This document shows positions 53 through 18,512 of a stretch of 18,589 bases of DNA, piece after piece. How positions within the stretch are numbered: the first letter of the stretch is position 1; each line of letters begins with the position of its first letter. The position numbers and the translations under genes were made by a program. Origin of the DNA: Fimbriimonadaceae bacterium (lineage in GTDB: Bacteria > Armatimonadota > Fimbriimonadia > Fimbriimonadales > Fimbriimonadaceae); contig JAIBBE010000180.1 in NCBI GenBank assembly GCA_019694835.1, forward strand, positions 1 through 18,589, read 5' to 3'. The notes under the pieces are model-generated. The model did no database searches, was not told the DNA's origin, and saw only the letters and a program-made list of their open reading frames with translations.

Positions 53-125
53 GTGGCTGTAGTTCAGTTGGTAGAGCACCAGGTTGTGATCCTGGCTGTC
101 GCGGGTTCGAGTCCCGTCAGCCACC
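53..125 (+). tRNA. tRNA-His (anticodon GTG)
   Basis: The acceptor arms GTGGCTG (53-59) and CAGCCAC (118-124) pair fully. The anticodon stem CCAGG/CCTGG (79-83, 91-95) encloses TTGTGAT with anticodon GTG at 86-88. The T arm is GCGGG-TTCGAGT-CCCGT. A G at 52 faces the C at 125, matching the extra G-1 pair that marks tRNA-His. The 3' CCA is not encoded. The gene remains complete although an element is integrated in its 3' half, because the att core restores the sequence. Confidence 0.97.
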
Positions 126-126
126 C
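77..126 (+). repeat. attL core, 50-bp direct repeat (left copy)
   Basis: These 50 bases are identical to 18463-18512. Identity breaks on both sides (G76 versus C18462, A127 versus C18513). The repeat runs from the end of the tRNA D arm through the anticodon arm and T arm to one base past the discriminator. This is the usual attachment site for tyrosine integrases that use tRNA genes. Confidence 0.95.
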
Positions 127-130
127 AGCA

Positions 131-367: not shown

Positions 368-586
368 ATGAAGCACTGCAACCAGACGAGCCTGCCTCAG
401 CGGATGACTATCCGGCAGGCCGCAGAATCCAAGAACCTATCCACCAAGACGATTCGTCGCTACATCTCGTCCGGGCGGTTGACCGCTTACCGTGTAGGTC
501 CGCGTGCGATCCGGGTGGACCGCGACTCCCTCCTTGCTCTGGACACCCTGATCGGTTGCGACACCGCCGCAAAGGCGAATTCGTGA
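368..586 (+). CDS. Excisionase-like helix-turn-helix protein
   Basis: Small protein (72 aa from the ATG at 368) with a MerR/excisionase-type winged helix: the segment MTIRQAAESKNLSTKTIRRY is followed by a wing-like GRLTAYRVGPRAIRVDRDSL. Such proteins act as recombination directionality factors or small regulators of integrative elements. Its place beside attL, immediately upstream of the replication ATPase and across attP from the integrase, fits an Xis role. The start is uncertain: a GTG at 326 gives 86 aa, and an ATG at 404 gives 60 aa that still hold the whole HTH. None has a clear ribosome binding site. Its TGA overlaps the GTG of the next gene (GTGA, 583-586), so the two are probably translationally coupled. 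It could instead be a repressor of the rep gene. Confidence 0.8.
   Translation: MKHCNQTSLPQRMTIRQAAESKNLSTKTIRRYISSGRLTAYRVGPRAIRVDRDSLLALDTLIGCDTAAKANS
571..575 (+). promoter_or_regulatory. Ribosome binding site fixing the start of the Rep-like ATPase
   Basis: AAAGG ends 7 bases before the GTG at 583. Together with the GTGA overlap it favours 583 over the in-frame TTG at 556. Confidence 0.6.
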
Positions 587-1815
587 CCGCATCCGAATAC
601 CGGACAGTCAACCTCATATCGGCGACCGACGTTACCGACGACGTGCCAACGTGGGCCTGGGAGTACAACGGCAAGGGCCGCATACAACTCGGAACCCTCG
701 CACTGTTCGCCGGCAGGCCGGGAGCCGGTAAGAGCACAGCCGCGAGATGGTTCGCTGCCGGGTTTACCAACGGCACACTGGCGGGCCGCTGGTGCGGGAA
801 GCCGCAGAACGTCGCTTATATCGCGCCCGCCGAGGAGTCGTTGAAGTACATCGTCAAGCCGGGGTTGCGCGCCGCAGGGGCCGACCTCAGCCGTATTTAC
901 TTCCCCGAGGTATGGCACGACGACAAGCAAGTGCGACTCCAGTCCGACCTGGACGAAGCCCGTCTTACCGAGGAGATCGTCGCAGCGGGCATCACCATCG
1001 TCGTCGTGGACCCGTTGATGGACACCATCTCGGCCTCCACCGACATCCATCGCAACAACGAGGTACGGGCCTGCATCGACCCCTGGGCGCGGATCGCCGC
1101 CAAGATCGACGGCATCGTCATCGGGGTCGCACACCTGAAGAAAGCCGCCACCGGAGATGTAGTCGCGGGAGTCAACGGGTCGAGTGCGTTCGGCGAGGTC
1201 CCTCGCGCCGTGTTCGGCTTCGCCAAGGACCCGGCAACCGACGACGACCGAATCATGTCGCAAGAGAAGAATTCCACCGGCGAGGAGGACCTGGCGCTCA
1301 CCTACCGGATCGAGTCCCACCCGGTGACCACCGACTCGGCCAACGTCGCCGAGGTGGGGCGGTTCGTCATCATCGGCGAGTCGGATCGCACGGTTGGTGA
1401 TGTTCTCCGCGAGGCCAAGCCGCCTGCCGCTAGTGACGCGCAGATCTGGCTCGAGGACTACCTCACTGAACACGGCACCGCCCCTTCACGTGATGTCAAG
1501 GAAACGGGTAAGGCGGAAGGATTTAGTGGATCGGCCATCGACCGCGCGGCTAGGAACCTGAAGGTGGCGATCACCACGTCCAATGCCTTCCCGCGTCACA
1601 CGCTGTGGTCGCTACCACGGTCACGTCAGTCACGTCAGTCGCCTCGTGTACAAGTCGTGCGTGACGCGACTGACGTGACTGTGGACAACTGCCCCGGTTG
1701 CGGCGGTCCGCTGGGCGCGACCACCGGCAATTGCGCCTATTGCATTGCTTCCGAGGCCAACAGGATTGCCGCGAAGGCGAATGAGGCCGACGACACCAAT
1801 GCCGCGATGGTGTGA
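583..1815 (+). CDS. RepA-like RecA-fold ATPase/replicative helicase
   Basis: A 410-aa protein of the AAA_25/RepA hexameric helicase group, which unwinds DNA during replication of plasmids and integrative elements. Visible parts are the Walker A motif GRPGAGKS (residues 44-51, K50), a Walker B strand IVVVDPLMD (D143), and the motif VIGVAHLKK, which may supply a sensor histidine. A helical/winged segment follows around residues 290-350. The C-terminus carries two CxxC pairs (CPGC and CAYC), a likely zinc ribbon. Between these lies a Ser/Arg/Gln-rich linker encoded by short direct and inverted DNA repeats (1622-1681). The GTG at 583 is preferred because it overlaps the upstream stop and has an AAAGG site. 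The gene may let the excised circle replicate. A role in regulation or as a helper-dependent satellite replicase is also possible. Confidence 0.85.
   Translation: MTASEYRTVNLISATDVTDDVPTWAWEYNGKGRIQLGTLALFAGRPGAGKSTAARWFAAGFTNGTLAGRWCGKPQNVAYIAPAEESLKYIVKPGLRAAGADLSRIYFPEVWHDDKQVRLQSDLDEARLTEEIVAAGITIVVVDPLMDTISASTDIHRNNEVRACIDPWARIAAKIDGIVIGVAHLKKAATGDVVAGVNGSSAFGEVPRAVFGFAKDPATDDDRIMSQEKNSTGEEDLALTYRIESHPVTTDSANVAEVGRFVIIGESDRTVGDVLREAKPPAASDAQIWLEDYLTEHGTAPSRDVKETGKAEGFSGSAIDRAARNLKVAITTSNAFPRHTLWSLPRSRQSRQSPRVQVVRDATDVTVDNCPGCGGPLGATTGNCAYCIASEANRIAAKANEADDTNAAMV
1622..1681 (+). repeat. Iteron-like direct and inverted repeats inside the rep gene
   Basis: CACGTCAGT occurs twice in tandem (1622-1630, 1631-1639) and once inverted as ACTGACGTG (1669-1677). 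The larger inverted repeat has perfect 16-bp arms at 1627-1642 and 1666-1681, separated by 23 bases. It lies in a poorly constrained linker of the Rep-like protein. Tandem short repeats within or beside a rep gene commonly form the Rep-binding part of an origin. That function is inferred. Confidence 0.55.
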
Positions 1816-1819
1816 TCAC

Positions 1820-2239: not shown

Positions 2240-5200
2240 GTGGCGAATCACGGCAATCCTGTTGGCACGCAGAGAAGTCCGGCGATTAAAGCACATCTGC
2301 GCCCTAGCTGCGGCAGATCACAGCGTGGACGTCCTGAATGGACGAACGGCCTCGAACCGTCGGTGCTAGTAGGCATAATCGACGAGGTGACATCCTCTGA
2401 GGGCTGGCTCAACCAGGACCGAAGTCTCATTCGTTGGGTAGATGATCACCGCCGACGTGCCATCGAAGCTTATGCAGCGGATCCACTTCTCATAGAGGAA
2501 CATTCAAGGCAAGAGGATAGCTACCGAACCGGTGGCTATGCGCACCGGCAGGTGTTGGAATTGGTTCAGAATGCCGCCGATGCGCTTTCGCGCGGTCACG
2601 AACGAGGCCGGATCGAGGTCGTACTCGACAATGGATTCATATACTGCGCTAATCAGGGTGCGCCATTCGATCAGTCGGGCCTTGAAGCCGTCACACATGC
2701 GTATCTGAGCGACAAACGAGGTCAGGAGATCGGTCGCTTTGGCCTAGGGTTCAAATCTCTTCTGGGCATTGGTGAATCGATACATGTTTTTAGTAAAACA
2801 GTCTCCTTCGGCTTTTTGCAAGCCGAGTCAGCGGCGATTCTGAACGAAATTGCACCGCGAGTAGGTAGCCGTCCCATATTGCGATTACCCCATCTAATCG
2901 ATTTTCAAGTGGAAGCAAATAACGACCCTATCCTTCGAGACTTGTCAGACTGGGCTACAACTATCGTAAGGGTCCAAGTAGTCCGAGGAATGGAAAGACT
3001 GATCGAGGACTTGAAATCATTCCCAGCTCAATTCATGCTTTTTGTAGACGGGGTGTCCGAGATTCGGATCAGAATTGGCGACGAGGCGCCAGTGGCATTC
3101 GCATCGGAAAAAATCAATGACCACCTGTGGCGGCTATTCGATGGGACGAAGAGTTCTGAATACGTCGTCTTCAGACAAATGCACCGCCCATCGGATGCTG
3201 CCCTTGCGGAGGTCAGCGAGGCTGTCCGCCGGCCCGAGGTGACCGTCACATATGCGGCTCCCCTGGATGATGCCCAGGCCCGCGGAGAATTTTGGGCATA
3301 CTACCCGCTGCAGGACGTTACCTCTGCAAGGGGCATTCACAATGCGCCCTGGAGAATCAACGACGATCGCACGAACTTGCTCGATGGCCAGTTCAATGAG
3401 GAGTTGTTGGTCGTACTTGCGCACCTAATCGTTATGGCTCTGCCTTACCTCCGCACCGCTGACGATCCTGCGCGTCATTTTGACTATTTGCCAGCGCGGG
3501 GCAGAGAAATTACGTATACCGCCGATAAGCGCCTCTCTGCATTAGTACCTCAGCTCGCATCGCAGACTGCATGCATTCCGGACGCCGAGGGCAACCTGAA
3601 GTTGCCCGATGTTCTAAGCTACCCGGAAATGGGTTTGAACGTTGAACTAGCGTCGGTGCGAATTTGGGATCAGTCTCCGGGCCGACCCGTCTTGTCTCCG
3701 CATTGGTCATGCTTTAAGTCAAATACTCGTAAATTCCGTCTCCGCACGCTCATCAGGCCCGATAATGATGCGATCCCTAATGAACGCGAATTAAGTGCGT
3801 CCGAGTGGCTGGAGGCACTCGTCCGAGATGCGACTGACGATCAATGCGACTATGCATTGCAAGTATATTCATCGATAAAAGATGAAGCCACCAGGGCACT
3901 AATGCTGGAAGCAAGAATAATTCCCGATGCGAACGGCCGACTCTCTAGCCTAGATGCAACAAGCGAATTGTTCTTAAGGGGTAATCTGCTGAGCGAAGCT
4001 GCGGGCCTCCGCCTGGTTCGCCGCTCATTCCTGGTGCGCGAGAACGTCGAGGAACGGCTGCGCTCGTTGGGCTTTGTTGACGTCGATCCAAAGCATGAGC
4101 TGGAGCGGTTGGCGAATCAGGTCGCCCGAACCTGGGACGACGACGAGTGGAGGGCCTTCTGGAGCTTGGTTGACCAAGTCAGCCCCGACGACGCCGTAGA
4201 AATTCTCGTTGCGCACCTTAACGAGGGACTCATCTTAAAGGTCTTGAGTCGCGACGGATCCTGGCGACCGGTGGGCACTGTCGTCGTACCTGCGGTTGTC
4301 AACCCGACAAAGGGCGCCCTGGCCGTGGATGTGTCGTTTCACGAACGCCATCTGGGTTTGCTTCGCGAGCTAGGGGTCGCTGAACGACCCGTTATGACGT
4401 CCACCGCTTTACGGGATCTCACGCTCCTGGAGTATCTGAGGATCTGTCGGGATATATACGTCAAGGGCGTCGATAGCCGTCAGCGGCCGGATCTGTCGAC
4501 GATCAACTTTGCGGAATCGAAGGCGTGGGGCCCCCTTTATCTCCTCAGGCGCTTCGAGGATGAAGACGAAATGGACTGCTTAACAAGTTGGACAAGAGAG
4601 TTGCTCGAGGCTGATGGCGATGAGTTTTTTACGCTTCAACAGAACCCTGGCCGGGGAGCGGTTCTTGCTCCACAGCGAGTGCGGGCGCCCCACCTCTGGG
4701 CAGCAGAGAGATACGGCCGAATTGAGTCCAGTTGGGGCCCACGCCAGCCCCATCAAACGCTGAGCCACTCCCTTGCGGAGTTCTCCGCTTTGCTTCCTGT
4801 GGCCCGCTGGCCCGTATCTGCCAAGGTATCAACCATAACTACGATCGACGATGTCACTCCCGAGCTTTGGCGCGAATTTGTTGCACGCCATCCTGATGGG
4901 GGGGATCCATTCCTACTTGGTGATCTGCTACTCAGAGCCTCGAGATCCCTAGGGCAAGGCGCCGCGCCTGAATCGTTGCCAGCAGTGCGTGGGGTGGGGT
5001 GGGATGTGGTTCCAGCGACCGACCTCCTCGTTGCGCGGAGCGACGACGAATGTCGCGCCTTACGCCACGAAGGACTCCCGTTTGTGGCCCTCGCTGCCGA
5101 GGAGGACGCACAATCCCTCGTTTCAACGTGGCGTTGCTCTCTTGCTTCAACGCTTTTGAGCGTCGAGATAGTGACCGAGGAGGCCAGCGATCCGGTGCGG

Positions 5201-7045
5201 CTCCTGGATAGGTTCCCGACTTTGCGGAACTACGTATTCGACGAGCTTGACAATATCGAAATTGTGGAATGCAGTTCCCTTCAGCAAGTCGTGAGTTCGC
5301 CGGCTGGCACCGAAAGCCACTACCTGGAGGTTGAGCAGTCCGGGCAGAAGATTTACTACGAAGCCACATTCTCGGAAGAGGAGCTCGTCGGCTGGATTTC
5401 GGAGAAGTTGGGCCTCGGCCTTAATCCCTTGGATGTCCAGCATGTGCTAAGTGCGACAGAGGATCTCAGAATAAGGGAGCGAATTGCTGCTTGCCGAGCG
5501 CAAGCGGATCCTGCGGACAAGCTGCTCGCGTTGCTGCCGGCCAGGGAGCTTGAAATGCACCTTCCGACTGGTTTGCTCGCGAGCATTCGCCAAGTCTCGG
5601 GCGAAGGTGAAGAGCGACAGGTGGCTGAACTGCTCCTCCTTGTTCACGGGTTCGATGCGCTTGCAGAAGTTCGCAAGGAACTGGCGGAAGCCGGCTACAG
5701 CGTTCCGGACCGGTGGGCTGGCTCCGCTCCGGCTGTCGCCTTCGTCCGAAGTCTCGGCTTTCCAACGGAATATGCGGGTGAGCGCAATCGCGGGCTGCAG
5801 CCAGAGTTTGTGGTTCTCGGGCCACCAAACCTGGACAGCTTGCATCCGTATCAGTCGGATCTGGCTGAGCAGATTCGCCGACTACTTAGAAACCGCGATC
5901 GTCCCGAACGCGCGATGCTCTTTCTGCCTACCGGTGCGGGAAAGACGCGGGTGACTGTGGAGGCGGCGGCGAAGTCTTTGATCAGCGGAGAGTCGCCCGG
6001 CCCGATTCTCTGGATTGCACAATCGGAGGAGTTGTGCGAGCAAGCCGTGCAGACATGGACCACGGTGTGGCGGCAGTTCGGCGACCAGCCGTTGCGGATT
6101 TGCAGGCTGTGGAGACACCACGAAGTTGCCCGAAGTGATAATGCAGTAACCGTGATCGTCGCGACCGACGCGAAGCTCGATAAGATCCGCGAGAGCGACG
6201 ACTACGAGTGGATCAAGTCGGTATCTGCAGTGATCATCGACGAGGCGCACGGGGCCACCGCACCTGGCATCACTCAAACATTGCGATGGCTTGGTATACG
6301 AGGTCGGAATACTACATCGGTCCCTTTACTGGGCTTGACTGCAACGCCTTTTGCCGGCCGCGGGGTAGAGAAAAACGAGCGGCTCTCTCAACGATTCGGG
6401 GGTCAGCTCCTCCAGATCCCCGTCGAAGATCCTTACGCTGAGTTACAACGCCTTGGCGTACTTGCGACAGTGGAGCATCAGCCGTTGCGTGGTGCGACAG
6501 TCGCCTTGAATCCCGACGAGGTTCAGAAGGTGAACACATTTGGTGACCTTCCGAATAGTGTGCTCGAGCGGGTTGGTAAGGATCACGAACGCACGGTGAC
6601 TCTGCTAAGGCACATAGAAGAGCTACCAGATGATTGGCCTGTCTTGGTTTTCACATCATCTGTGCTGTCGGCTCAGGTGCTTTCGGCTCTATTGCGCGTT
6701 CGTGGGATACCTTCTGGGACAGTGAGTGGGAGCACACGCACGGGCGAGAGACGCAGGATCATCGAGAGCTTTCGCGAGGGGTCCATCCGCGTTCTTACGA
6801 ACTGCAACCTGCTGACCCAGGGCTTTGACGCCCCGGCTGTTCGCGCCCTCTACATCGCCCGTCCGACATTCAGTCCGAATGCCTACATCCAGATGGTCGG
6901 CCGGGGGCTGCGTGGCGAGCTTAACGGCGGCAAGGCCGAATGCTTGATCGTAAATGTGGAGGACACGTTTAACGAATTTGGTCACGATCTAGCATACAAG
7001 GATTTCGACTATCTGTGGCAGAAGCTAGGCAAGAAGAATCCGTGA
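2240..7045 (+). CDS. Sacsin-like GHKL ATPase fused to SF2 (DEAH) helicase
   Basis: A 1601-aa protein with two enzymatic ends. Residues about 65-200 form a sacsin/Hsp90-like ATP-binding fold: N-box ELVQNAADA (E107, N111), DNG at 130-132, and glycine-rich lid GRFGLGFKSLLGI (165-177). The middle (about 200-1190) is a long sacsin-type region that I cannot assign further. Residues about 1200-1601 are an SF2 helicase: PTGAGKT (1230-1236, K1235), DEAH (1334-1337), LTATP (1366-1370) and QMVGRGLR (1551-1558). Both active sites look intact. It is the first gene of a four-gene operon ending in drmA-drmB, so a role as DNA-sensing or DNA-translocating antiphage component is inferred. The start is unsure: the GTG at 2240 has no good ribosome binding site, and GTGs at 2363 or 2387 would leave the ATPase domain whole. 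Many of its codons are more AT-rich than those of the rep and int genes. Confidence 0.9.
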   Translation: MANHGNPVGTQRSPAIKAHLRPSCGRSQRGRPEWTNGLEPSVLVGIIDEVTSSEGWLNQDRSLIRWVDDHRRRAIEAYAADPLLIEEHSRQEDSYRTGGYAHRQVLELVQNAADALSRGHERGRIEVVLDNGFIYCANQGAPFDQSGLEAVTHAYLSDKRGQEIGRFGLGFKSLLGIGESIHVFSKTVSFGFLQAESAAILNEIAPRVGSRPILRLPHLIDFQVEANNDPILRDLSDWATTIVRVQVVRGMERLIEDLKSFPAQFMLFVDGVSEIRIRIGDEAPVAFASEKINDHLWRLFDGTKSSEYVVFRQMHRPSDAALAEVSEAVRRPEVTVTYAAPLDDAQARGEFWAYYPLQDVTSARGIHNAPWRINDDRTNLLDGQFNEELLVVLAHLIVMALPYLRTADDPARHFDYLPARGREITYTADKRLSALVPQLASQTACIPDAEGNLKLPDVLSYPEMGLNVELASVRIWDQSPGRPVLSPHWSCFKSNTRKFRLRTLIRPDNDAIPNERELSASEWLEALVRDATDDQCDYALQVYSSIKDEATRALMLEARIIPDANGRLSSLDATSELFLRGNLLSEAAGLRLVRRSFLVRENVEERLRSLGFVDVDPKHELERLANQVARTWDDDEWRAFWSLVDQVSPDDAVEILVAHLNEGLILKVLSRDGSWRPVGTVVVPAVVNPTKGALAVDVSFHERHLGLLRELGVAERPVMTSTALRDLTLLEYLRICRDIYVKGVDSRQRPDLSTINFAESKAWGPLYLLRRFEDEDEMDCLTSWTRELLEADGDEFFTLQQNPGRGAVLAPQRVRAPHLWAAERYGRIESSWGPRQPHQTLSHSLAEFSALLPVARWPVSAKVSTITTIDDVTPELWREFVARHPDGGDPFLLGDLLLRASRSLGQGAAPESLPAVRGVGWDVVPATDLLVARSDDECRALRHEGLPFVALAAEEDAQSLVSTWRCSLASTLLSVEIVTEEASDPVRLLDRFPTLRNYVFDELDNIEIVECSSLQQVVSSPAGTESHYLEVEQSGQKIYYEATFSEEELVGWISEKLGLGLNPLDVQHVLSATEDLRIRERIAACRAQADPADKLLALLPARELEMHLPTGLLASIRQVSGEGEERQVAELLLLVHGFDALAEVRKELAEAGYSVPDRWAGSAPAVAFVRSLGFPTEYAGERNRGLQPEFVVLGPPNLDSLHPYQSDLAEQIRRLLRNRDRPERAMLFLPTGAGKTRVTVEAAAKSLISGESPGPILWIAQSEELCEQAVQTWTTVWRQFGDQPLRICRLWRHHEVARSDNAVTVIVATDAKLDKIRESDDYEWIKSVSAVIIDEAHGATAPGITQTLRWLGIRGRNTTSVPLLGLTATPFAGRGVEKNERLSQRFGGQLLQIPVEDPYAELQRLGVLATVEHQPLRGATVALNPDEVQKVNTFGDLPNSVLERVGKDHERTVTLLRHIEELPDDWPVLVFTSSVLSAQVLSALLRVRGIPSGTVSGSTRTGERRRIIESFREGSIRVLTNCNLLTQGFDAPAVRALYIARPTFSPNAYIQMVGRGLRGELNGGKAECLIVNVEDTFNEFGHDLAYKDFDYLWQKLGKKNP

Positions 7046-8604
7046 AAATCATTCCAGCAGTTCAACACTGGGGCCCCATCTCCTCAAGGGCCGAGCTTCG
7101 GGTGGCCAAGCTTCTCGTGGATGTGAATGTCGGCGAACCGGCAACTTGCTTCTACTCCGTACACATTCCGAAGCATGAGTACAAGCGGATGGCCGAAATT
7201 GACTTCCTGATTGTTCTTGATGGCATGTTCCTGGTAGTGGAAGTCAAAGGCGGTCGACTCGCCCGACGTGGTGGAGTCTGGGAGTTCACGGATCGTTACG
7301 GCGACACCAATACAAAGCGTGAAGGGCCGTTCGAGCAAGCGCGTACAGGTGCGTTTGCCTTCAAGGCAATCCTTGATGAGCGTCTTCATGGATCGAGACT
7401 CGATTTTGGCTCGGTTGTGGTCACCCCCGATCAATCCTTCGCGGATGACATTGAGTGGGACCCTTCAGAGCACATTGGGCCCGCCGGGATGACGGTCAAC
7501 GCGATGGAGTCTGGTCTCCGCGATGCAATCCGCTTCTGGCGGTCGAAGTGCCGACACAGGAGCCACACTCCGATGCGTGATGTCCTAAAAGTTATGCGGC
7601 CCGATTTCGACCGGGTACTAAGTATGTCCCTAATGGGAAGTGCCCTCGAACAGGAGTATCTCGAGCTCGCGTCAGAACAGTACGAAGCACTTCGGGGCAC
7701 TGAGATCAACTCCCGCGTATTCGTTACGGGAGGAGCTGGCTCCGGCAAGACGCTCCTTGCGATCGAGACCGCACGGCGCGCTGCAGAAGATGGCGCTGAT
7801 GTCCTCATCACATGCCGGTCTCCCCATGTAGTCGAGGTCATGCGCGCATCGCTCGATGACAGGCGCGTTCGCTGCCTCCCCTACGGAAAGACCTATGGAG
7901 CGGAACCGGCGCAGGTTCTTGTCGTGGATGAAGCGCAGGACCTCACAAATGTCGCTGACTTCATTCATCTCGATGAGCTTGTCGAAGGGGGTATCGAAAA
8001 TGGCAGGTGGCGTATGTTCTGCGATCCAAACAATCAACTTAACATTGATGGCACTTACGACGACGAAGTCGCGAAGGAATATCGTCAAAATGCTGCGCAA
8101 TATCATCTTCCGTACAACTGCCGTAACACCGCGCCGGTCGTCCAGCAGACCCAACTCATTACCGGTGCTGATCTAGGCGTCGCGAAAATCGGCGAAGGTC
8201 CCGCCGTTGGATTCAAGCAATCCTCCTCCGACGCGGAGGCCGCGGTCCAAATAGATGAGCAGCTGAAGCACTTGCGCGGCGATGAAGTCCAACTTTGTGA
8301 TGTCGCGATCGTGTCGCTTCGCGACAGTGCCCTTGAAAGTGCAGCGGTTCTCACGAGGGCCTTTCGGAGAGGCCAGATCGAAGTGGCCGGCGGTCCTGCC
8401 GTGGGCGCAGACGCAGCGACACTCACGACTGCACGCGAGTTCAAAGGGCTTGAAGCTGCACACATCTTGGTTGTCGACGTCGATGATCTGTCAACTCAAG
8501 CAATGATGGCTCGGCTGTATGTCGCAATGACACGCCCACGAATCAGCCTGTGGCTTTGTGTCAGTTCCCTGGCGTGGGCGCAAATGAGCACGGAAAACGT
8601 TTGA
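7042..8604 (+). CDS. NERD-domain nuclease fused to UvrD-like SF1 helicase
   Basis: A 520-aa protein. The N-terminus is a NERD (nuclease-related) domain of the PD-(D/E)XK type, with E18, D54 in EIDFLIV and E67-x-K69 in VEVKGG, a complete putative catalytic set. The rest is an SF1 ATPase/helicase: GGAGSGKT (230-237, K236), VVDEAQD (294-300), YNCRNTAP, REFKGLEA and YVAMTRPR (493-500). It probably cuts or unwinds DNA by ATP-driven movement. The GTG at 7042 overlaps the upstream TGA (GTGA) with AAGAAG 5 bases before it. An alternative GTG at 7015 adds 9 residues. Coupling to the large helicase and to drmA downstream places it in the antiphage operon, where it occupies the nuclease position that the phospholipase-D protein DrmC fills in ordinary DISARM. 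That equivalence is inference. Confidence 0.9.
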   Translation: MKIIPAVQHWGPISSRAELRVAKLLVDVNVGEPATCFYSVHIPKHEYKRMAEIDFLIVLDGMFLVVEVKGGRLARRGGVWEFTDRYGDTNTKREGPFEQARTGAFAFKAILDERLHGSRLDFGSVVVTPDQSFADDIEWDPSEHIGPAGMTVNAMESGLRDAIRFWRSKCRHRSHTPMRDVLKVMRPDFDRVLSMSLMGSALEQEYLELASEQYEALRGTEINSRVFVTGGAGSGKTLLAIETARRAAEDGADVLITCRSPHVVEVMRASLDDRRVRCLPYGKTYGAEPAQVLVVDEAQDLTNVADFIHLDELVEGGIENGRWRMFCDPNNQLNIDGTYDDEVAKEYRQNAAQYHLPYNCRNTAPVVQQTQLITGADLGVAKIGEGPAVGFKQSSSDAEAAVQIDEQLKHLRGDEVQLCDVAIVSLRDSALESAAVLTRAFRRGQIEVAGGPAVGADAATLTTAREFKGLEAAHILVVDVDDLSTQAMMARLYVAMTRPRISLWLCVSSLAWAQMSTENV

Positions 8605-8608
8605 GGAG
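8603..8608 (+). promoter_or_regulatory. Ribosome binding site of drmA
   Basis: GAGGAG lies 5 bases before the ATG at 8614 and overlaps the stop codon of the NERD-helicase gene. It fixes the drmA start and supports co-translation. Confidence 0.75.
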
Positions 8609-8613
8609 TGTGA

Positions 8614-11600
8614 ATGGAAAATAGTCGGCGAATGACCGATCTTCGGGCTGAAGTTGTCGAACACCTGCGGCGACAGTATCTAGGACCCGCTGGCGGTGAT
8701 GACGAGGCTCTCATCGACCGCCCTGATCGATTTTACCTGGTTGGAACCCTATACCCCCGCGGTCCAGCGAGCCGCCGAGAAGACGGTGACGTTCTGGGGG
8801 AAGATGGCCGTGGAGACGATCTCGACGAACCAATCGAGCTGGCGAACGCATGGCACCCGGCGTCGGCTGCAATCTCCTTTCTTCACACTTCACCCGAGTT
8901 GATATGCGAAGTCTCAGCGGCTCGTTACGAACGGCGTTCCGAGGGTGATCGTCTTGTATGGCAGCGCATTCCGCTAAAGGAATCCAGAATTGTCATTGAT
9001 CCCGATAGCACTGACGTCCCTAGCATTCTTGGTGGCGCGGGCCGGCTCGTATCCGTATGGCGATCTGTTGGTTCCGATCAACTGGTCACCGTCGCCGTCG
9101 AAAACACTGCAGTGCACGATAATGCAGAGACACCACCCCCGACGGAAAACTGTCTATTTCAGGTCCATTTGTCGTGTCACATAAATGACGGCGAGGCCAA
9201 GCCATATCCCGCTGTCGCGTCGCTGAGTGATGATCCCGAGGACAAGGAGCTGCAGCTTCTATACCGGTATCGACAGGTTTTTGGCGTGGGGCACGGCTGC
9301 TCAGTGTCCTGGGAGGCCGATGGCAACGGCAGAGTTCATACGGTCTCGACCGAAATGTTGCCCCAAGCGGTTGTGCCCGGCATCTCGGCCGGAGACCGGA
9401 GTGCCGAAGTCCTGCGCCTCTCCTACCTTTCCGACGAGACGGTGGAAAGGGCGACGCTTATTTCAGCCCTGAAAGAGTTCGTAGACGGTTACGCCGAGTG
9501 GGTTCAAACCGAGACCGACGGCATTCAATTACTTGACGAACGCTTCGACGGTGCGCCCTCGCGCCTCGCTAGCCGGATGAACCGCGCTGTCGTGCGGATG
9601 CGTGCAGGTATAGATGTCTTGGCCGAAGATGACGATGTCCTGGTGTCGTTCCGCCTTGCGAACGCGGCGATGCGGAGGCAGATGCAGCAGTCCAGTCACA
9701 TTCGCGATACGCCAGGTGTTCGAGGGTCCGCGTTGCTACCCCTCGATCCCGATGCGATGGAGCCGGCTTGGTTTCCTTTCCAATTAGCGTTTCAACTGCT
9801 GACTCTTTCTTCCGTTGCATTTGCGGATGACGTTGACCGGGAGTTGGTCGATCTCATTTGGTTTCCGACCGGTGGAGGTAAGACTGAGGCGTACCTTGCG
9901 ATGGCCGCGTTTGAGATCATCCATCGACGCCTAAAACGTGGTACTCGCGGCGGCGGAACAGCGGTGATCACCCGCTACACCCTCCGTATGCTGACTGCGC
10001 AACAGTTTCAGCGTGCCAGCGCACTGATTTGTGCACTGGAGCTGATGCGGCGTGATCACGTTCGCCTTCAAAACACCGAACGATTTACGATTGGTCTGTG
10101 GGTTGGGGGCGAGACCACGCCCAACTCTTACCGTGAAGCGTTTACTTCATACCGAGACATGCGCACGGCCCTTGAGCCAGAGAGCCCATTTCAGATCAGC
10201 AACTGTCCATGGTGCGGCACAAGTCTTATACCAAGACGCCGGTCAGATGAAGACGGTGCGTACGGGTTTCGTTCCACACAAAACTCATTCGAAGTACATT
10301 GCACTCACCCCGATTGCGCCTTCGCGGACGCGCTCCCCGTTCTCGTGGTAGACGATCAAATGTTCAGTGAGCCGCCCACGTTGCTTGTTGCGACCGTAGA
10401 TAAATTTGCTCGGCTCGCTTGGTCGCCAGACGCGGGGGCACTATTTGGTCGGCATCAACACTATGACGCCCCAAGTCTTGTAATCCAGGATGAGCTCCAT
10501 CTGCTATCAGGTCCGCTCGGAACAACGGTCGCGCTCTATGAAGCAGCAATTTTTGGCCTACTGACATGGGATGGAAAGAGGCCGAAGGTAATCGCATCAA
10601 CAGCGACGATTCGATCTGCCTCCGAACAGGTACGCAAGTTGTACGGCTCCGAGGTGGCTCTCTTCCCCCCAAGTGGCCTCACCGCAGAGAATAGCTACTT
10701 CGCCCGGACCGATCACAGCCTTCCCGGTCGCTTATATATCGGATTGATGCCCCAGGCGCACACCGCGAGCCGCGCGGCCGTGTTGACGTCCGTAGCCTTA
10801 CTTGAGGCGCCAACTACGACTGGGCTTAATCCAGCGGAGCTGGACGCATACTGGACTCTGGTCGCATATCACAATTCTCTGCGAGAGCTAGGTCGCACGG
10901 TGACCGCCGCGAGGGACGACGTCGGCGGGGTTTTGCGTCGGCGGGCAGAGGGCCGAACCTCCGCACGCACGTTGCGGTCAGATGGAGTTATCGAACTGCG
11001 CAGCAATGTAACGCCGGGCCAACTGATCAAGCACATGGGTAGATTGGCGCGCCGGGTCGATCAAGGTGATGCAGTCGATCTCGTCGCTACGACAAACCTG
11101 CTCTCGGTGGGCATTGACATCAGCAGGCTTGGACTGATGCTTATGAACGGTCAACCAAAGACAACTGCTGAGTACATTCAAGCCACAAGTCGTGTGGGGC
11201 GGTCCACCGTTCCCGGCTTGGTGGTGACACTTCTTCGCGCGAACAAGCCACGGGACCGCTCCCACTATGAGGCTTTTCGGGCGTACCACGAGTCAATATA
11301 TAGGTACGTTGAACCTACGAGTGTGACTCCCTGGTCGCTGCCATCGCGCGTCCGATCCCTTCATGCTGCACTCGTTATCCTTGTTCGCCATGGCGGGGGA
11401 CTCACCGCCAACGACGATGCGGGACGGTTCACAGCAGACAGCCGGATTACTGCGAAGGCAATCGAAATGATCGAAAGAGCAGTCAATAGGGCGGAGCCAA
11501 TTGACGAAGAGTTGCGGCAAGCGACGGCTGATGATCTGAGGAGACTTGCGTTTGAGTGGGATCGTCGAGTGCGGGAAGCCTCGGAACTAGGTCTCACCTT

Positions 11601-11739
11601 GCGATACCGAAGCGTAGACAACGACTATCCGGCGTTGTTATGCGACTTTGGCCAGCGACGTGAAGGATGGCCGACGGCCAATACGATGCGATCGGTTGAT
11701 CGCCAGGTTCGCGTTATTGCTTTCGGAGAGGGGATCTGA
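8614..11739 (+). CDS. drmA: DISARM-type helicase DrmA
   Basis: A 1041-aa SF2 helicase of the DrmA type. The Walker A is the unusual FPTGGGKTEAY (K423), followed by ITRYTLRMLTAQQFQRA, typical of this group. The DExH box reads DELH (626-629) within QDELHLLSGPLGT. The C-terminal core contains TTNLLSVGIDI and YIQATSRVGRS (854-864). A four-Cys zinc site (C531, C534, C563, C568) is inserted between the Walker A and DELH motifs. In DISARM, DrmA works with DrmB on foreign DNA, and the pair blocks phage entry or replication. Its stop codon shares one base with the drmB start (TGATG), the tight coupling expected of partners that form a complex. All motor motifs appear intact. The protein acts in the cytoplasm, and no membrane segment is seen. 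Confidence 0.93.
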   Translation: MENSRRMTDLRAEVVEHLRRQYLGPAGGDDEALIDRPDRFYLVGTLYPRGPASRREDGDVLGEDGRGDDLDEPIELANAWHPASAAISFLHTSPELICEVSAARYERRSEGDRLVWQRIPLKESRIVIDPDSTDVPSILGGAGRLVSVWRSVGSDQLVTVAVENTAVHDNAETPPPTENCLFQVHLSCHINDGEAKPYPAVASLSDDPEDKELQLLYRYRQVFGVGHGCSVSWEADGNGRVHTVSTEMLPQAVVPGISAGDRSAEVLRLSYLSDETVERATLISALKEFVDGYAEWVQTETDGIQLLDERFDGAPSRLASRMNRAVVRMRAGIDVLAEDDDVLVSFRLANAAMRRQMQQSSHIRDTPGVRGSALLPLDPDAMEPAWFPFQLAFQLLTLSSVAFADDVDRELVDLIWFPTGGGKTEAYLAMAAFEIIHRRLKRGTRGGGTAVITRYTLRMLTAQQFQRASALICALELMRRDHVRLQNTERFTIGLWVGGETTPNSYREAFTSYRDMRTALEPESPFQISNCPWCGTSLIPRRRSDEDGAYGFRSTQNSFEVHCTHPDCAFADALPVLVVDDQMFSEPPTLLVATVDKFARLAWSPDAGALFGRHQHYDAPSLVIQDELHLLSGPLGTTVALYEAAIFGLLTWDGKRPKVIASTATIRSASEQVRKLYGSEVALFPPSGLTAENSYFARTDHSLPGRLYIGLMPQAHTASRAAVLTSVALLEAPTTTGLNPAELDAYWTLVAYHNSLRELGRTVTAARDDVGGVLRRRAEGRTSARTLRSDGVIELRSNVTPGQLIKHMGRLARRVDQGDAVDLVATTNLLSVGIDISRLGLMLMNGQPKTTAEYIQATSRVGRSTVPGLVVTLLRANKPRDRSHYEAFRAYHESIYRYVEPTSVTPWSLPSRVRSLHAALVILVRHGGGLTANDDAGRFTADSRITAKAIEMIERAVNRAEPIDEELRQATADDLRRLAFEWDRRVREASELGLTLRYRSVDNDYPALLCDFGQRREGWPTANTMRSVDRQVRVIAFGEGI
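11725..11733 (+). promoter_or_regulatory. Ribosome binding site of drmB
   Basis: GGAGAGGGG, within the end of drmA, stops 5 bases before the ATG at 11739. It confirms the overlapping start. Confidence 0.7.
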
Positions 11740-13559
11740 TGACCGCGGATATGAGGATGACGCGACTGAGTCAGACTGTGTCACCTTTCGGAGTTGGTGC
11801 AATACTGGACATCGGCGGTGAGTCACTCATGGCCATGGACATCAGTGTCTGGCCGTATCGCGACACTCGCCGAGTAGTTTCACGTCGGCTCGAACTTAGC
11901 CTCGGCGTATCCGAATTACGCAGTCCACCGAGCGTTCCTTCATACCCATCAGTCAACACGCCGGGCCTGGCGTATCGGCGATTTCCGGCCTGGCTCTTCT
12001 GCCAGAGTTGCCGGCGAATGCACCGCTTTCTGTCTCGAGAGGAGACGGGGTCTGCGCCCCGGTGCACAGAATGCAGCGGGCCCATGGTGCCTATGCGGTT
12101 CGTCGCCGTAGGGGTGCAACACGGCCATGCAATGGACGTGCCATGGGACGTCTGGGCACATTCCGAACCGACAGATGACAATCAACGACGTTGCCGTTCA
12201 GAGGAATTGCTTTTCCAGACGACGGCTGCGGAGACTGAGGGACTTGCAAGCCTAGTGGTACGTTGCGCAGCCTGTTCAGCTAGCCGCCACTTGGGAGATC
12301 TGACTGTGCGGGAGTCGCTGCGTCGCATAGGAGTGCGTTGCAGCGGAGCGCAGCCGTGGCAATCCCCACGGCCGGGCGGATGCGACGAACGCGTAGAGGT
12401 TCTGCAGCGAGGCTCTGCCAGCGTCACGATTAGCGACACAGTAACTGCCTTGGACATCCCGGAGCCGACGACGCAAGTCCAAAACGTTGAAGACAATATT
12501 CGGCAACACAGGAACTTCGAGGATGTGAGGACTGCGCCAGACGGACCGCGGGCTTCAGTGCTTGTTGGCCTCATAGCGGAGGATCTTCAAGTAAGCGAAG
12601 AACTGGTATGGAGAGTCGCCAGAACAAGTCCCAATGCTTCACAGGAGATTCAAGCGGCGAGGCAAGGCCTCTTAGCGGATGAGTGGCTCGCCTTTCAACA
12701 AGCTATAGACAACCCGGGCGAGTCGGTGGGAACCCCGAACTTCGTGGTTTCGCTGACGCCCTTCCTCCCGGACAGCCCCGATGAGGCACTCACGGCACTG
12801 TCAGCGTTGGTTGGAAATGTCGTTATCGCTCAACGTATTCGGGAGATTAGAGTGCTGCGCGGGTTTCGAAGATATGACTATGGAAGCGACTTTGTGGATG
12901 TCGACCTTGGTCCCAGGGGTCGCGAGAGATGGCTGCCGGCAGTCGAATCATTTGGGGAGGGAATTCTTCTGACGCTCGACGACTCGGAGCTTCGTAGCTG
13001 GGAGTCCAAAGAAGAAGTGAGGGCACGCGTCGCAACGTTAGAGCGAAGGCGCAGAAGCAGCAAGATCGGCTCTCGTCTGGAGGAAGTGACGCCACGACTT
13101 GTCCTACTCCATACGCTCAGCCACTTACTAATGAGACAGCTGGCGTTCTCGTGCGGTTACTCCTCCGCATCGCTGCGAGAACGTGTATACGGGGCGACCG
13201 TACCGACACCAGAAAGCGGGATCTTGATCTACACGGCCTCTGGTGATTCGGAGGGGACACTGGGGGGGCTCGCCCGACAGGCAGAAGCACCTCGACTTGG
13301 TCGTACGCTACTTGCAGCACTTGAGCAAGCGGCATGGTGCTCGGCAGATCCGTTATGCGGTGAGAGTCGCGGTCAGGGCCTCGATAGCCTGAATTTGGCC
13401 GCCTGCCATGGATGCAGTCTTGTATCTGAAACATCCTGCGAACGCAGTAATTTGATGCTGGACCGGCTCCTGGTCATAGGCAACGAGGAGGTTCCGGGCT
13501 ACTTTTCCGATTTGATCGCGCTGATGCGGGGGCAAGCCGCGCTGAACTCAGAAGGATAA
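11739..13559 (+). CDS. drmB: DISARM protein DrmB (DUF1998)
   Basis: A 606-aa protein. The N-terminus LSQTVSPFGVGAILDIGGES is the usual opening of DrmB proteins. A zinc finger follows (C88-x2-C91, C109-x2-C112), then a second Cys cluster around RCAAC. The C-terminal DUF1998 domain holds HTLSHLL (H458, H462), a segment ILIYTASGDSEGTLGG, and a cysteine set (C534, C540, C556, C559, C567) likely to bind metal. DrmB is the non-helicase partner of DrmA. The gene overlaps drmA by one base and ends the operon 24 bp before the convergent HNH-like gene, with no terminator between them. The expected third DISARM core gene, drmC, does not follow. Confidence 0.93.
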   Translation: MTADMRMTRLSQTVSPFGVGAILDIGGESLMAMDISVWPYRDTRRVVSRRLELSLGVSELRSPPSVPSYPSVNTPGLAYRRFPAWLFCQSCRRMHRFLSREETGSAPRCTECSGPMVPMRFVAVGVQHGHAMDVPWDVWAHSEPTDDNQRRCRSEELLFQTTAAETEGLASLVVRCAACSASRHLGDLTVRESLRRIGVRCSGAQPWQSPRPGGCDERVEVLQRGSASVTISDTVTALDIPEPTTQVQNVEDNIRQHRNFEDVRTAPDGPRASVLVGLIAEDLQVSEELVWRVARTSPNASQEIQAARQGLLADEWLAFQQAIDNPGESVGTPNFVVSLTPFLPDSPDEALTALSALVGNVVIAQRIREIRVLRGFRRYDYGSDFVDVDLGPRGRERWLPAVESFGEGILLTLDDSELRSWESKEEVRARVATLERRRRSSKIGSRLEEVTPRLVLLHTLSHLLMRQLAFSCGYSSASLRERVYGATVPTPESGILIYTASGDSEGTLGGLARQAEAPRLGRTLLAALEQAAWCSADPLCGESRGQGLDSLNLAACHGCSLVSETSCERSNLMLDRLLVIGNEEVPGYFSDLIALMRGQAALNSEG

Positions 13560-13583: not shown

Positions 13584-14471
13584 TCAACCGATGACAGTGC
13601 CGCTACTTGCACACCTATTGCAGATTGTTGCCAATCTGCTCAAGTCGCCAAGACGCTCAGCTGAAAGGCCAAATAGGCCGTCTCCACGAGCGTCGAGGTG
13701 GCGAACCAACAAGTAGAAGGGTTGAGTTTCAGATTGACTGACATCCGCGTGGCTATGCTGACACGACCAGCAGCGGTAGCGATCTCTCTGAAACACCTGC
13801 CGGCGGAGATCCTCCGGGAATAGTCGCTGCGTCTGGTCGAGCTTGGCCCAATCTTGCGTCGACGCGAGTCGTACTTGGCCGGGCTGAAGGTCCGGTGCGT
13901 CGGCGTCTGTCTCGATAGGAAAGCCATAGTCATCGCGTAGCGAGCGTGCTAGCCGTTCTCCGATTTGTGAGCCGGCGACTCGGTCTAGCTCATCCACGTG
14001 CACCACCTGACCAACCGCTCGACGAAGAAGCTCCGAAACGCGCTCCTTAGGAGGGTCTTCCAGTTGTTGCACATCGCCCACCATTCGCCAACGCTCTCGA
14101 CGAGCAACATTGGGTTCCGCCGCGACTAGTCGATAACGGCCGCCGGATTCTTCTATGCCATAGCCCTCTTCGACCCGAAGTTCCCTTACGCGTCGTGCCC
14201 ACTCACCGATGCCCGATACTGCTGCGAGCTCGTCGCCATAGACCCATTCCCCTACTCGCAGCTTTAAATAGTCGAGGATCAGGCCCCGTGCTCCACGGCC
14301 ATGCGGGCGTCTGGGACGCCTGCCTTCGTAAGCGCGTACAACGGAAAGACGAAGTTGGGTGATTGCTTCGAGAACTTCTTCTTGGTCCGCTTGCGACGCG
14401 ACTGCGGCAGTAAGCGCAGCTAACCGATCAAGCGCGGCGTGATAGTCATCAAGGGGATCTTTGGTAGCCAC
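13584..14471 (-). CDS. Winged-helix protein with HNH-like nuclease C-terminus
   Basis: A 295-aa protein. Residues 1-50 look helical. Two similar winged-helix units follow (about 61-115 and 141-205), each with a basic or Gly-rich linker. Residues 220-290 resemble an HNH endonuclease: VFQRDRYRCWSC (C234, C237), RHLD (H258) and CNRC (C284, C287). The last histidine and the central asparagine of a textbook HNH motif are not obvious by eye, so catalysis is not assured. It sits 72 bp downstream of a cytosine methyltransferase on the same strand and may be the cognate restriction enzyme. GTG is the start, with only a weak binding site. The two winged helices suggest DNA recognition by this protein itself. 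Confidence 0.75.
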   Translation of the reverse strand: MATKDPLDDYHAALDRLAALTAAVASQADQEEVLEAITQLRLSVVRAYEGRRPRRPHGRGARGLILDYLKLRVGEWVYGDELAAVSGIGEWARRVRELRVEEGYGIEESGGRYRLVAAEPNVARRERWRMVGDVQQLEDPPKERVSELLRRAVGQVVHVDELDRVAGSQIGERLARSLRDDYGFPIETDADAPDLQPGQVRLASTQDWAKLDQTQRLFPEDLRRQVFQRDRYRCWSCQHSHADVSQSETQPFYLLVRHLDARGDGLFGLSAERLGDLSRLATICNRCASSGTVIG

Positions 14472-14543: not shown

Positions 14544-15626
14544 CTAGAGGTACCCAATAACGTGTCGTGCCAGAGCCTTAGCTAGTCCGACGGGGACTGC
14601 ATTGCCGATTTGCTTGGCAATCTCGATCTTCGAACCGCACCACAGGTAGTCCTCGGGGAAGTCCTGGAGGAGCGCCGCTTCGTAGTGCGTGATCGGACGA
14701 TTGACACGGTGCTTTCCTTCCTCGTCCCACTGAGGGTGAAGATAGGCGCCCTTCTCGGGCTTGAAGAACTCCGTTCGGATTGTATGGGAGGGCACGGACC
14801 AGCGCATGCGGCCCATAACGTCCGTTGTACCGGTGGGCTTCTCACGCCAACACCGTGGCAACAAGTGTTCAGGGACGTCAAACCGACCACCGCCCGGCGG
14901 AACATGGTCGTAGCGGGCGAGTGAAAGCGGCGTTGGCGTACGTCCCAGATGGATCTCGAGGCCTTTGAATGCACCGGGAACGACCTCACCGAAAAAGGCC
15001 GTAGTCGAATCGGGTAAGTGATTCGAAGTTGGACTCTCTGGAACGTTTCCGATGCGTTCGCGGGTTCCTCGCCAAGGCTCCCTCGGAAGCGTGCCGGCCC
15101 GATCGTGTGTGGGCCTAGGCAGGTCGATTCGGCCTACCCGTGAACCGATGACGATAGTTCTAATGCGACGTTGTGCTACCCCGAAGTCAGCAGCGTTCAA
15201 ATGGCCGTATGTGAGCTCGTATTTGCCTAGGCTGCCACCATCAGTTTCCGCGAGGAGAAGCGCAAACTCAGATGAACGCATGAATCGATCGACATTCTCT
15301 ATTACGAAGACCGCTGGGTTGGCTTGTTTTACAACGCGGATGTACTCGCGCCAGAGCTTGTTTCGCGGATCGTTTACATTTCGAGAGCCCAGATTGGAGA
15401 AACCTTGGCAGGGTGGACCTCCGATCACAACGTCTGCGTTCGGAATCTCGGCGTTTGTGACGGTACCGATATCCCGCCAAAGCGTGTGATGTTCACCGTA
15501 ATTCGCCGCGTATGTTGCAGCAGCGTGCAACTCCCACTCCACGGCTAGCACGGGAGTGAAGCTCTGAGCGACGAAACCGCTGGTCATGCCGCCACACCCG
15601 GCGAAGAGATCGATCATCGTGGGCAT
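14544..15626 (-). CDS. DNA (cytosine-5) methyltransferase
   Basis: A 360-aa C5 methyltransferase, the usual length for the family. Motifs in order: I, DLFAGCGG (6-13, cofactor binding); IV, GGPPCQGFS with catalytic C73; VI, ENV (110-112); VIII, QRRIRT (152-157); a target-recognition region of about 180-275; and X, QIGNAVP (339-345). All are intact. It transfers a methyl group from S-adenosylmethionine to cytosine in a target that cannot be read from the sequence. It lies between vsr and the HNH-like gene on the same strand, the pattern of a type II restriction-modification cassette. Class 2 DISARM also uses a C5 methyltransferase (DrmMII), so it may protect host DNA from the neighbouring DrmAB operon. 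The ATG at 15626 is the first start. A second Met at codon 4 is possible. Confidence 0.95.
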   Translation of the reverse strand: MPTMIDLFAGCGGMTSGFVAQSFTPVLAVEWELHAAATYAANYGEHHTLWRDIGTVTNAEIPNADVVIGGPPCQGFSNLGSRNVNDPRNKLWREYIRVVKQANPAVFVIENVDRFMRSSEFALLLAETDGGSLGKYELTYGHLNAADFGVAQRRIRTIVIGSRVGRIDLPRPTHDRAGTLPREPWRGTRERIGNVPESPTSNHLPDSTTAFFGEVVPGAFKGLEIHLGRTPTPLSLARYDHVPPGGGRFDVPEHLLPRCWREKPTGTTDVMGRMRWSVPSHTIRTEFFKPEKGAYLHPQWDEEGKHRVNRPITHYEAALLQDFPEDYLWCGSKIEIAKQIGNAVPVGLAKALARHVIGYL

Positions 15627-15682: not shown

Positions 15683-16189
15683 TCAACTCTCACGAGAGCG
15701 GGCCGGCACAGTCAACAGCCCGAGTGCCGTGGTTACCTCTGCTGTCGCTGCAGCGAGCGGTTCGTGCTCCCAGATGCGCAAGACGACCCATCCAGCGTCG
15801 ATAAGCAGCTGATCTTGTCGGCGATCACGTGCCGCATTTTCATTCAGCTTCTTCGTCCAGAATTGGACGTTTGTTGCCGGAATTTGTCCGTGCTCTGGAC
15901 AGCAATGCCAGAAACAACCATCGACAAAAATAGCGAGGTGGAGACGGGTAAACACAATATCTGGACGTACAACGAACTTTCCAATCCGTATTGGAAAATC
16001 CTTTCGGTAACGGTAGCCGGCAGCGTGAAGTGCCTTGCGCAATTGCAACTCGGGCGTAGTGTCACTCCTCCTCACCGCCGCCATATTCCGCGAGCGAGCG
16101 AGCGACGGAGGCGAGTACGTTACCGATATCGCGGTCCCCTGCGAACGGGGCCTATACGGACGACTCACTGCTTCATCTTCGTGCGCCAT
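15683..16189 (-). CDS. vsr: Very short patch repair endonuclease Vsr
   Basis: About 168 aa from the ATG at 16189. It is a Vsr family enzyme, nicking DNA 5' of the T in T:G mismatches that arise when methylated cytosine deaminates. Visible signatures are SLARSRNMAAVRRSDTTPE, RPDIVF (catalytic Asp, residue 77), VDGCFWHCCPEHG (zinc ligands and active site, about 90-101), and GWVVLRIWEHE. The frame is open up to 16360, but that extension looks non-coding and would overlap the upstream gene. The exact start (16189 or 16198) is unsure because neither has a good ribosome binding site. It ends 56 bp before the methyltransferase whose mutagenic side effect it would repair. Confidence 0.93.
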   Translation of the reverse strand: MAHEDEAVSRPYRPRSQGTAISVTYSPPSLARSRNMAAVRRSDTTPELQLRKALHAAGYRYRKDFPIRIGKFVVRPDIVFTRLHLAIFVDGCFWHCCPEHGQIPATNVQFWTKKLNENAARDRRQDQLLIDAGWVVLRIWEHEPLAAATAEVTTALGLLTVPARSRES

Positions 16190-16277
16190 CCTTGGCATCG
16201 TAAAACAATGCCGTGGGCGCACCACCGCAGCCGGTGTTCCTGATGTAGTGGCAGGCGGCCCGGGCTTGGAGCAGAGA

Positions 16278-16859: not shown

Positions 16860-16867
16860 CTCGGCAC

Positions 16868-16873
16868 CCTTCC
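16868..16873 (-). promoter_or_regulatory. Ribosome binding site of the zinc-finger gene
   Basis: GGAAGG on the minus strand, 8 bases from the ATG at 16859. It selects that start over 16889. Confidence 0.6.
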
Positions 16874-18462: not shown

Positions 18463-18512
18463 CACCAGGTTGTGATCCTGGCTGTCGCGGGTTCGAGTCC
18501 CGTCAGCCACCC
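18463..18512 (+). repeat. attR core, 50-bp direct repeat (right copy, 3' tRNA-His fragment)
   Basis: Exact copy of 77-126. It lacks the tRNA 5' half, so it is a tRNA fragment and not a second tRNA gene. It lies 121 bp upstream of the integrase start and marks the right edge of the element. Confidence 0.95.

Follow-up and report, generated by a model that had tools for sequence, protein, structure and literature searches.

For the bacterial DISARM systems, the PADLOC definitions require DrmA, DrmB and DrmC together with either DrmD and DrmMI or DrmE and DrmMII (PMC9252829). In the DISARM of Serratia, the DrmAB pair is reported to load on single-stranded DNA with a 5' overhang and to have a lower ATPase with 5-methylcytosine, and DrmC to be dispensable (PMC9142583). 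Beside these systems stand ARMADA, BRIGADE and TALON and, according to one figure legend, many uncharacterized DISARM-like classes (PMC12458937, Figure 1 legend). Here we analyse an 18,589-nucleotide stretch of DNA from a Fimbriimonadaceae bacterium (GenBank assembly GCA_019694835.1, contig JAIBBE010000180.1; 'the window' is the whole of this stretch), in which a drmA–drmB pair is preceded by two genes that we call A, a GHKL ATPase fused to a superfamily 2 (SF2) helicase, and B, a NERD nuclease domain fused to a superfamily 1 (SF1) helicase.

On balance we think it probable that these genes represent a DISARM-related defence class consisting of A, usually an SF1 helicase (of the NERD type in the flavour seen in the window), DrmA and DrmB, mostly joined by a C5-cytosine methyltransferase, and we found no description of such a class. 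Many actinobacteria carry this relative of DISARM, which looks like a distinct branch of bacterial immunity.

A four-gene operon with a DrmAB core

The operon had been predicted from the DNA letters as four coupled genes, GHKL ATPase–SF2 helicase, NERD–SF1 helicase, drmA and drmB, and its open reading frames (ORFs), domains and junctions bear this out. All four ORFs open at the positions expected, on the + strand and head to tail in the order A, B, drmA, drmB (Table 1). The TGA that ends A (7043–7045) shares bases with an in-frame GTG at 7042, the stop of B (8604) and the start of drmA (8614) are separated by 9 bp (8605–8613), and drmA and drmB meet in a TGATG (11737–11741) with the drmB ATG at 11739.

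The DrmAB pair, described from the outset as clear, matches the PADLOC and NCBIfam families as well as the solved Serratia pair (7s9v). DrmA scores 646 bits with the PADLOC DrmA model and E 5e-147 with 7s9v_A, while DrmB reaches 405 bits with NF038324 (cut-off 240) and E 2e-58 with 7s9v_B. The alignment begins at residue 147 of Serratia DrmA, the first part of which is without counterpart in the window protein. Across aligned DrmA sequences the DELH motif is kept in 109 of 109, and the proposed methylation-sensing valine (V1028 in the window, aligned to V1296 of Serratia DrmA) in 108 of 109.

The other DISARM genes are missing, as the original prediction had claimed for the phospholipase-D gene and the class-specific genes: no DrmC, DrmE or DrmD-like profile matched in the window, and none of the nine flanking ORFs scanned with Pfam has a phospholipase-D domain. 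The DrmC profile, built from eight candidates of which one (L206) was confirmed by PADLOC and NCBIfam, matched neither the window nor any of the 76 A-bearing loci described below, and a relaxed search of the A loci gave a single 8-bit match; the same profile matches 10 of 24 sampled DrmAB loci, eight of those by construction. All 10 DrmC proteins of the sampled loci carry the phospholipase-D motif HxK(x4)D, but none of the 220 same-strand ORFs of 120–600 residues that start within 1.5 kb after DrmB does (73 of 77 loci). A DrmE profile made from two DrmE sequences had no match in the window or the 76 loci, and B has no NCBIfam DrmE match. The DrmD-like and PglX-like (DrmMI) profiles, for which relatives from the same loci were used, had none in the window.

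The N-terminal part of A belongs to the NCBIfam family P_loop_sacsin (NF047352, 65.4 bits, cut-off 50), and its residues 62–528 match the PADLOC model of TmtA (168 bits), which we take to be a protein of the Tiamat system; residues 1201–1573 form an SF2 helicase closest to RadD. The catalytic E, N, D and G of the GHKL fold are kept in 77 of 77 aligned A sequences, and in the predicted structure the GHKL and transducer parts resemble topoisomerase VI-B, Hsp90, MORC2 and sacsin. The fold comparison barely covered the middle of A (about residues 407–1190) and the NERD part of B, and assigns no fold there. Because many of the listed relatives are about 1550 residues long, A probably begins at GTG 2387 (1552 residues) or GTG 2363 (1560 residues) rather than at 2240. 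B carries a Pfam NERD domain (34.9 bits, cut-off 22.1) and an SF1 helicase whose core is predicted to be UvrD-like; the NERD motif E-D-ExK is kept in 60 of 60 aligned sequences.

Gene A recurs beside DrmAB

Public genomes were searched with an alignment of A alone. This gave 234 relatives, the best 80 of which were kept and fell into 79 loci; 76 of these (L001–L076) could be compared, and the other three (L077–L079) belong to other phyla and, as 6-kb contigs, do not reach the neighbouring genes. The comparable loci comprise 73 from 11 named actinobacterial orders, two from actinobacterial metagenome-assembled genomes (MAGs) for which no order is named, and one from an entry titled Planococcus. 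A is collinear with DrmA–DrmB in 75 of the 76, although DrmAB formed no part of the query, a recurrence that marks the arrangement as more than chance. With DrmC found in none of the 76, the survey supports the suggestion that the locus is a distinct DISARM-related type. A known subtype made up of precisely these genes appeared neither in the literature searched nor in PADLOC-DB 2.0.0, where A and B matched only the models of other systems. Whether both upstream families travel with DrmAB had been proposed as a check; A does so, and the full set of four with a NERD helicase is found in 46 of the 76 loci.

An SF1 helicase of some kind lies between A and DrmA in 67 of the 76 loci, the remaining 21 being of the UvrD/GajB type. 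When the window is included, the position is occupied by a NERD helicase in 47 of 77 loci, by a UvrD/GajB-like helicase in 21 and by none in eight, and one locus is non-collinear. A NERD helicase stands upstream of A instead in L042, which has no helicase between A and DrmA.

The association is also seen in samples of whole genomes. Among 396 Actinomycetota genomes, in which at most two A candidates per genome were scored, 24 have DrmB and four a full-length A, and all four also have DrmB; three further A matches span the helicase part only. With the seed genome G001 left out, DrmB occurs in 3 of 3 A genomes vs 20 of 392 others (Fisher 1.7e-4). The 24 DrmAB loci of this sample (L196–L219) include 10 with DrmC and two with A beside DrmAB. 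In 297 genomes from the order of G006 (the Cellulomonas of L005), DrmB was found in 31 (29 above the family cut-off) and A in 11 (13 copies); in all 11 the two are near neighbours on the same contig and strand, and gene labels confirm the 10 that were fetched. Without the seed, all 10 A genomes of that order have DrmB, vs 20 of 286 others (Fisher 2.5e-11). The two samples overlap each other and partly L001–L076 (e.g. L025, L074), and are not independent of the locus survey. Since 11 of the 31 DrmB-positive genomes of the order carry A, definitions that require DrmC would miss a sizeable share of the DrmAB loci there.

Correlated distances of A and DrmA

In a FastTree phylogeny of DrmA with 109 rows, the presence of A needs five changes, vs a mean of 27.3 when the labels are shuffled. 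One clade of 55 rows (support 99), which includes the window, consists entirely of DrmA accompanied by A; a second, of 26 rows, has 23 with A, mostly with a UvrD-type helicase. As A falls in two separate DrmA clades, it may be a module that was adopted more than once, the deep placements being unsure from long branches, as FastTree itself warns.

The tree bears on whether the operon is simply ordinary DISARM, class 2 in spirit, with a dispensable drmC, poorly conserved drmD and drmE, and an accessory replacement that is nothing new. DrmC is often missing besides being dispensable (PMC9142583), DISARM-like operons with swapped parts have been published (PMC10270631), and DISARM-like classes awaiting characterization are numerous (PMC12458937). 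One sampled locus (L209, 7356–11746) holds an intermediate set, DrmE–NERD helicase–DrmA–DrmB with a C5 methyltransferase nearby, so that the NERD helicase also occurs in a class-2-like DISARM. The window, however, falls outside both PADLOC definitions of DISARM (PMC9252829), and its DrmA, besides sitting in the all-A clade, lies below both NCBIfam equivalog cut-offs for DISARM DrmA (833.5 of 950 for NF038325 and 587 of 999 for the second model). We therefore judge it unlikely that this is ordinary DISARM: the window system has the DISARM core but belongs to no defined DISARM class.

Pairwise distances among A sequences follow those among DrmA (r = 0.96, 73 loci, leaving out L004, L008, L043 and L053) and those among B (r = 0.98, 47 loci), with 0 of 2000 permutations as high in either case. 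If A and B were a self-standing system, Tiamat-like or a MORC-type restriction system, that merely neighboured a minimal DrmAB and acted separately, it would be hard to account for this correlated divergence of A and DrmA, for the collinearity of A with DrmAB in all but one of the loci retrieved without it, or for the stop–start overlaps between genes in the window. We think such separate action very unlikely.

Several observations weigh against reading these genes as one class. Only the best 80 of the 234 A relatives entered the comparison. In L043, A is non-collinear, with DrmAB some 7 kb off on the opposite strand; in L004, the first A has no same-strand DrmAB, the collinear pair there belonging to a second, partly seen copy of A. 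No DrmB was found in the genomes of the three non-actinobacterial MAGs with A (L077–L079), and a helicase-less relative of A in L229 is without DrmAB. Among the three non-seed Actinomycetota genomes with A, the gene is adjacent to DrmAB in two and separated from it by 27 kb in G287. Shared ancestry by itself also gives correlated distances, and contributes to the r values above. In eight of the 76 loci the interval from A to DrmA holds no SF1 helicase, and B is therefore not a universal effector. DrmAB also occurs with a NERD helicase and without A (L209, with DrmE, and L211, L212, L214, L217, L221 and L223). The NERD helicase, not found in the A–DrmA interval of 30 of 77 loci, was accordingly ruled out as a signature of the system; A is the better one.

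Variants and relatives of A and B

Two other readings of A were considered and rejected. A disguised DrmE is not indicated by NCBIfam, which gave no DrmE match, or by hhalign, which gave a probability of 0.1% for residues 56–1190 against one DrmE sequence, itself a weak test. A viral origin found no favour in IMG/VR, where the 80 loci that were kept, out of at least that many, include one long relative (L080) and otherwise match the helicase part only. In plasmid and phage collections no place covers 80% of A.

A few loci depart from the usual form of A. In Phytohabitans flavus (L008, 9932–14634) it is split into two overlapping ORFs, a GHKL part and a helicase part, by a frameshift or a true fission, and in L249 (G496) the gene has one internal TAG. 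In L215 (G137, 6737–8494) a separate SF2 helicase gene, akin to the helicase part of A, is divergent from a DrmA–DrmB pair. Two genomes (L242 in G515, the genome that also holds L074, and L243 in G501) have two A genes around one DrmAB, in the order A–UvrD–DrmA–DrmB–A'. The paired copies share 34–36% identity within a genome, and their counterparts in the two genomes 88 and 93%; such divergent copies around one DrmAB would fit a possible GHKL heterodimer.

In structure comparisons, B aligns nearly full-length with human SLFN11 and SLFN14, in their middle and helicase regions (Foldseek E 1e-18), and could be a bacterial relative of the Schlafen helicase half. A NERD helicase–DrmA–DrmB set with Vsr, NaeI, HNH and C5 methyltransferase genes was observed on pROB02 of Rhodococcus opacus B4 (L223, 5098–18079), which lacks A and has no match to the DrmC profile.

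A methyltransferase and its companions

Adjoining the operon on the opposite strand are three genes that the original prediction overlooked, encoding a C5 methyltransferase, a Vsr-type endonuclease and an HNH-like protein. The methyltransferase, a probable self-marking enzyme, scores 362 bits with DruM2 vs 135 bits with DrmMII. Counting matches of at least 40 bits in the flanks that were fetched, the 76 loci have a C5 methyltransferase in 62, Vsr in 42, a winged-helix(-HNH) gene in 14 and NaeI in 12; DrmD-like genes occur in 10, PglX-like in five, and DrmC and DrmE in none.

How firmly the methyltransferase is tied to the operon is another matter. Its distances correlate weakly with those of A (r = 0.28, 0 of 2000 permutations as high; 45 loci with more than 400 bits, L004 and L043 dropped), a further point against including it in the class, and it may belong to a separate restriction unit. 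The methyltransferase, Vsr and HNH-like or NaeI genes could indeed form an independent type II restriction-modification unit that shares the island, as the presence of NaeI or a winged-helix(-HNH) gene in some loci and the occurrence of the methyltransferase unit on both sides of the operon, in both orientations, would suggest. Set against this is the regularity of the methyltransferase family in the A loci, given that its profile has no match in 10 sampled DrmC-bearing loci. We hold an independent unit to be possible though somewhat doubtful; it is compatible with a DISARM-related operon of A, B and DrmAB. The window methyltransferase is 80% identical to that of L076, though the A proteins are only 31% identical, which suggests that it has been swapped independently. 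The family thus appears to be a regular companion that is exchanged between systems on its own.

Comparison with described systems

With DISARM classes 1 and 2 the window shares the DrmA and DrmB families in two genes, the proposed methylation-sensing valine and, as in class 2, a cytosine methyltransferase; unlike them it has no DrmC, DrmD, DrmE or DrmMI, and has A and the SF1/NERD helicase instead. The system probably works like DISARM in its DrmAB core. With Tiamat it shares the sacsin-like N-terminal GHKL region, but the TmtA match spans only 443 of 1538 profile positions (8–450), and A has an SF2 helicase end and DrmAB as neighbours.

ARMADA has a YprA-family helicase as its hub, as here, and an SF1 helicase partner in type II; it differs in its one-piece YprA helicase and its BrxHII and PglX genes, whereas DrmA and DrmB are separate in the window, where no PglX-like or DrmD/BrxHII-like match was found. 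ARMADA-like operons were observed divergent from A–DrmA–DrmB in five of the 76 loci (L016, L022, L027, L036 and L054, about 1–9900), with a DrmD/BrxHII-like helicase, a PglX-like methylase and the start of a YprA-like helicase. In L220, A itself stands alongside a PglX-like gene, a 2238-residue YprA-like helicase with an MZB domain and a UvrD helicase. TALON likewise combines a YprA-family helicase with a NERD-type nuclease, but its ARMADA-like YprA is fused to RNase H and accompanied by TPR-CSD and TBP genes, mostly in Chloroflexota (PMC12458937); none of the nine flanking ORFs scanned in the window has a TPR, CSD or TBP domain, and the NERD domain is fused to an SF1 helicase. As set out in that source, ARMADA, BRIGADE and TALON are gene sets different from that of the window (PMC12458937).

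The MORC and paraMORC restriction systems bring together a GHKL ATPase, an SF2 helicase, a cytosine methylase and Vsr (PMC2292703), and at the domain level the window holds all of these, the ATPase with its transducer. It differs in fusing the GHKL domain to the helicase and in coupling both to DrmAB and an SF1 helicase, the relevant excerpts of that source describing no DrmAB (PMC2292703). Shield-associated DISARM-like operons offer a precedent for part swapping, with a defence protein embedded in a DISARM-like operon (PMC10270631); ShdA comes from a system named after an RmuC domain, and no relation to A was seen. Full-text literature searches, which did not reach the supplementary tables of PMC12458937, returned no description of this gene set, and none returned a paper combining 'DISARM' with 'sacsin'. 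The word 'DISARM' is absent from the main text of an actinobacterial defence survey (PMC10482375). The gene set may be listed, unnamed, among the uncharacterized DISARM-like classes of PMC12458937.

The integrated element

The operon is cargo of an 18.4-kb element integrated in tRNA-His and flanked by exact 50-bp repeats, which leave little outer flank within the window (Table 1). Opposite-strand genes (winged-helix/HNH-like, C5 methyltransferase, Vsr and zinc-finger-like) complete the cargo, beside the four-gene + strand operon. The small protein at the left end is excisionase-like by position and may act as such. The contig ends 76 and 77 nt beyond the repeats, i.e. 126 and 127 nt from their inner ends; these distances could come from a k=127 assembly graph of a sample that also held the element-free site, which suggests a presence/absence polymorphism.

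Table 1. Features of the window (positions in nucleotides from its first letter).
Feature	Position	Strand	Remarks
Left attachment repeat	77..126	.	50 bp; forms the 3' end of tRNA-His, whose gene (53-126) is intact
Small HTH_17/MerR-like protein	368..586	+	Pfam HTH_17, 32.3 bits, cut-off 27
Phage-type primase/helicase, C-terminal part (AAA_25)	583..1815	+	phrog_10729, 345.7 bits
Gene A	2240..7045	+	GHKL (sacsin/MORC/Hsp90-like) ATPase and transducer, middle region of about 780 residues, C-terminal RadD-like SF2 helicase
Gene B	7015..8604	+	NERD PD-(D/E)xK nuclease domain and SF1 helicase; start probably GTG 7042
drmA	8614..11739	+	short DISARM-type YprA-family helicase
drmB	11739..13559	+	DUF1998/MZB partner of DrmA, separate gene
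Accessory protein	13584..14471	-	two winged-helix-like repeats and a C-terminal HNH-like treble clef, as read from the alignment; weak phrog_740 HNH match, E 0.0038
C5-cytosine DNA methyltransferase	14544..15626	-	PF00145, 188 bits
Vsr-type endonuclease	15683..16360	-	residues 88-152 form the Vsr domain; translation probably begins further downstream
Small protein with phage zinc-finger-like C-terminus	16278..16889	-	PF24623
Tyrosine integrase of the element	17187..18341	-	PF00589, 58 bits; phrog_1, 215 bits
Right attachment repeat	18463..18512	.	identical to 77-126; adjoins the tyrosine integrase

A possible mechanism and its implications

If the system acts in phage defence, its parts may work together, perhaps as a physical complex, as follows. 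The C5 methyltransferase would mark host DNA as self, and DrmAB would be the sensor-translocase, loading on single-stranded or overhang DNA and being restrained by methylated cytosine as in Serratia DISARM. A could then close its GHKL domains on the engaged DNA as an ATP-driven dimeric clamp, by analogy with MORC and topoisomerase ATPases, and translocate by its SF2 motor, while B would unwind the DNA and its NERD nuclease cut in the stead of DrmC. The role of B is the least certain of these steps, because loci with a UvrD/GajB-type helicase, or with none, would need another nuclease. We can thus tentatively picture, with a little less than even confidence, a third, GHKL-driven class of the DISARM type, in which a dimeric MORC/Hsp90-like clamp-translocase, alone or together with an SF1 helicase of the NERD or UvrD type, has taken the place of DrmC, DrmD and DrmE and turned a methylation-gated DrmAB into a clamp-and-shred machine.

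As DrmC is dispensable, the effector of DISARM is unsettled, and a recurrent natural class that lacks DrmC, DrmD and DrmE but carries a GHKL clamp and a conserved nuclease-helicase of the NERD type would let one ask directly which partners DrmAB recruits. In the A proteins, bacteria provide cases of a helicase joined to a MORC/sacsin-type ATPase, and the layout of B may be a bacterial example of the Schlafen-like nuclease-helicase arrangement. If the GHKL-helicase module does work with the ARMADA-like YprA system beside which it stands in L220, it would be a portable activator of YprA-family defence.

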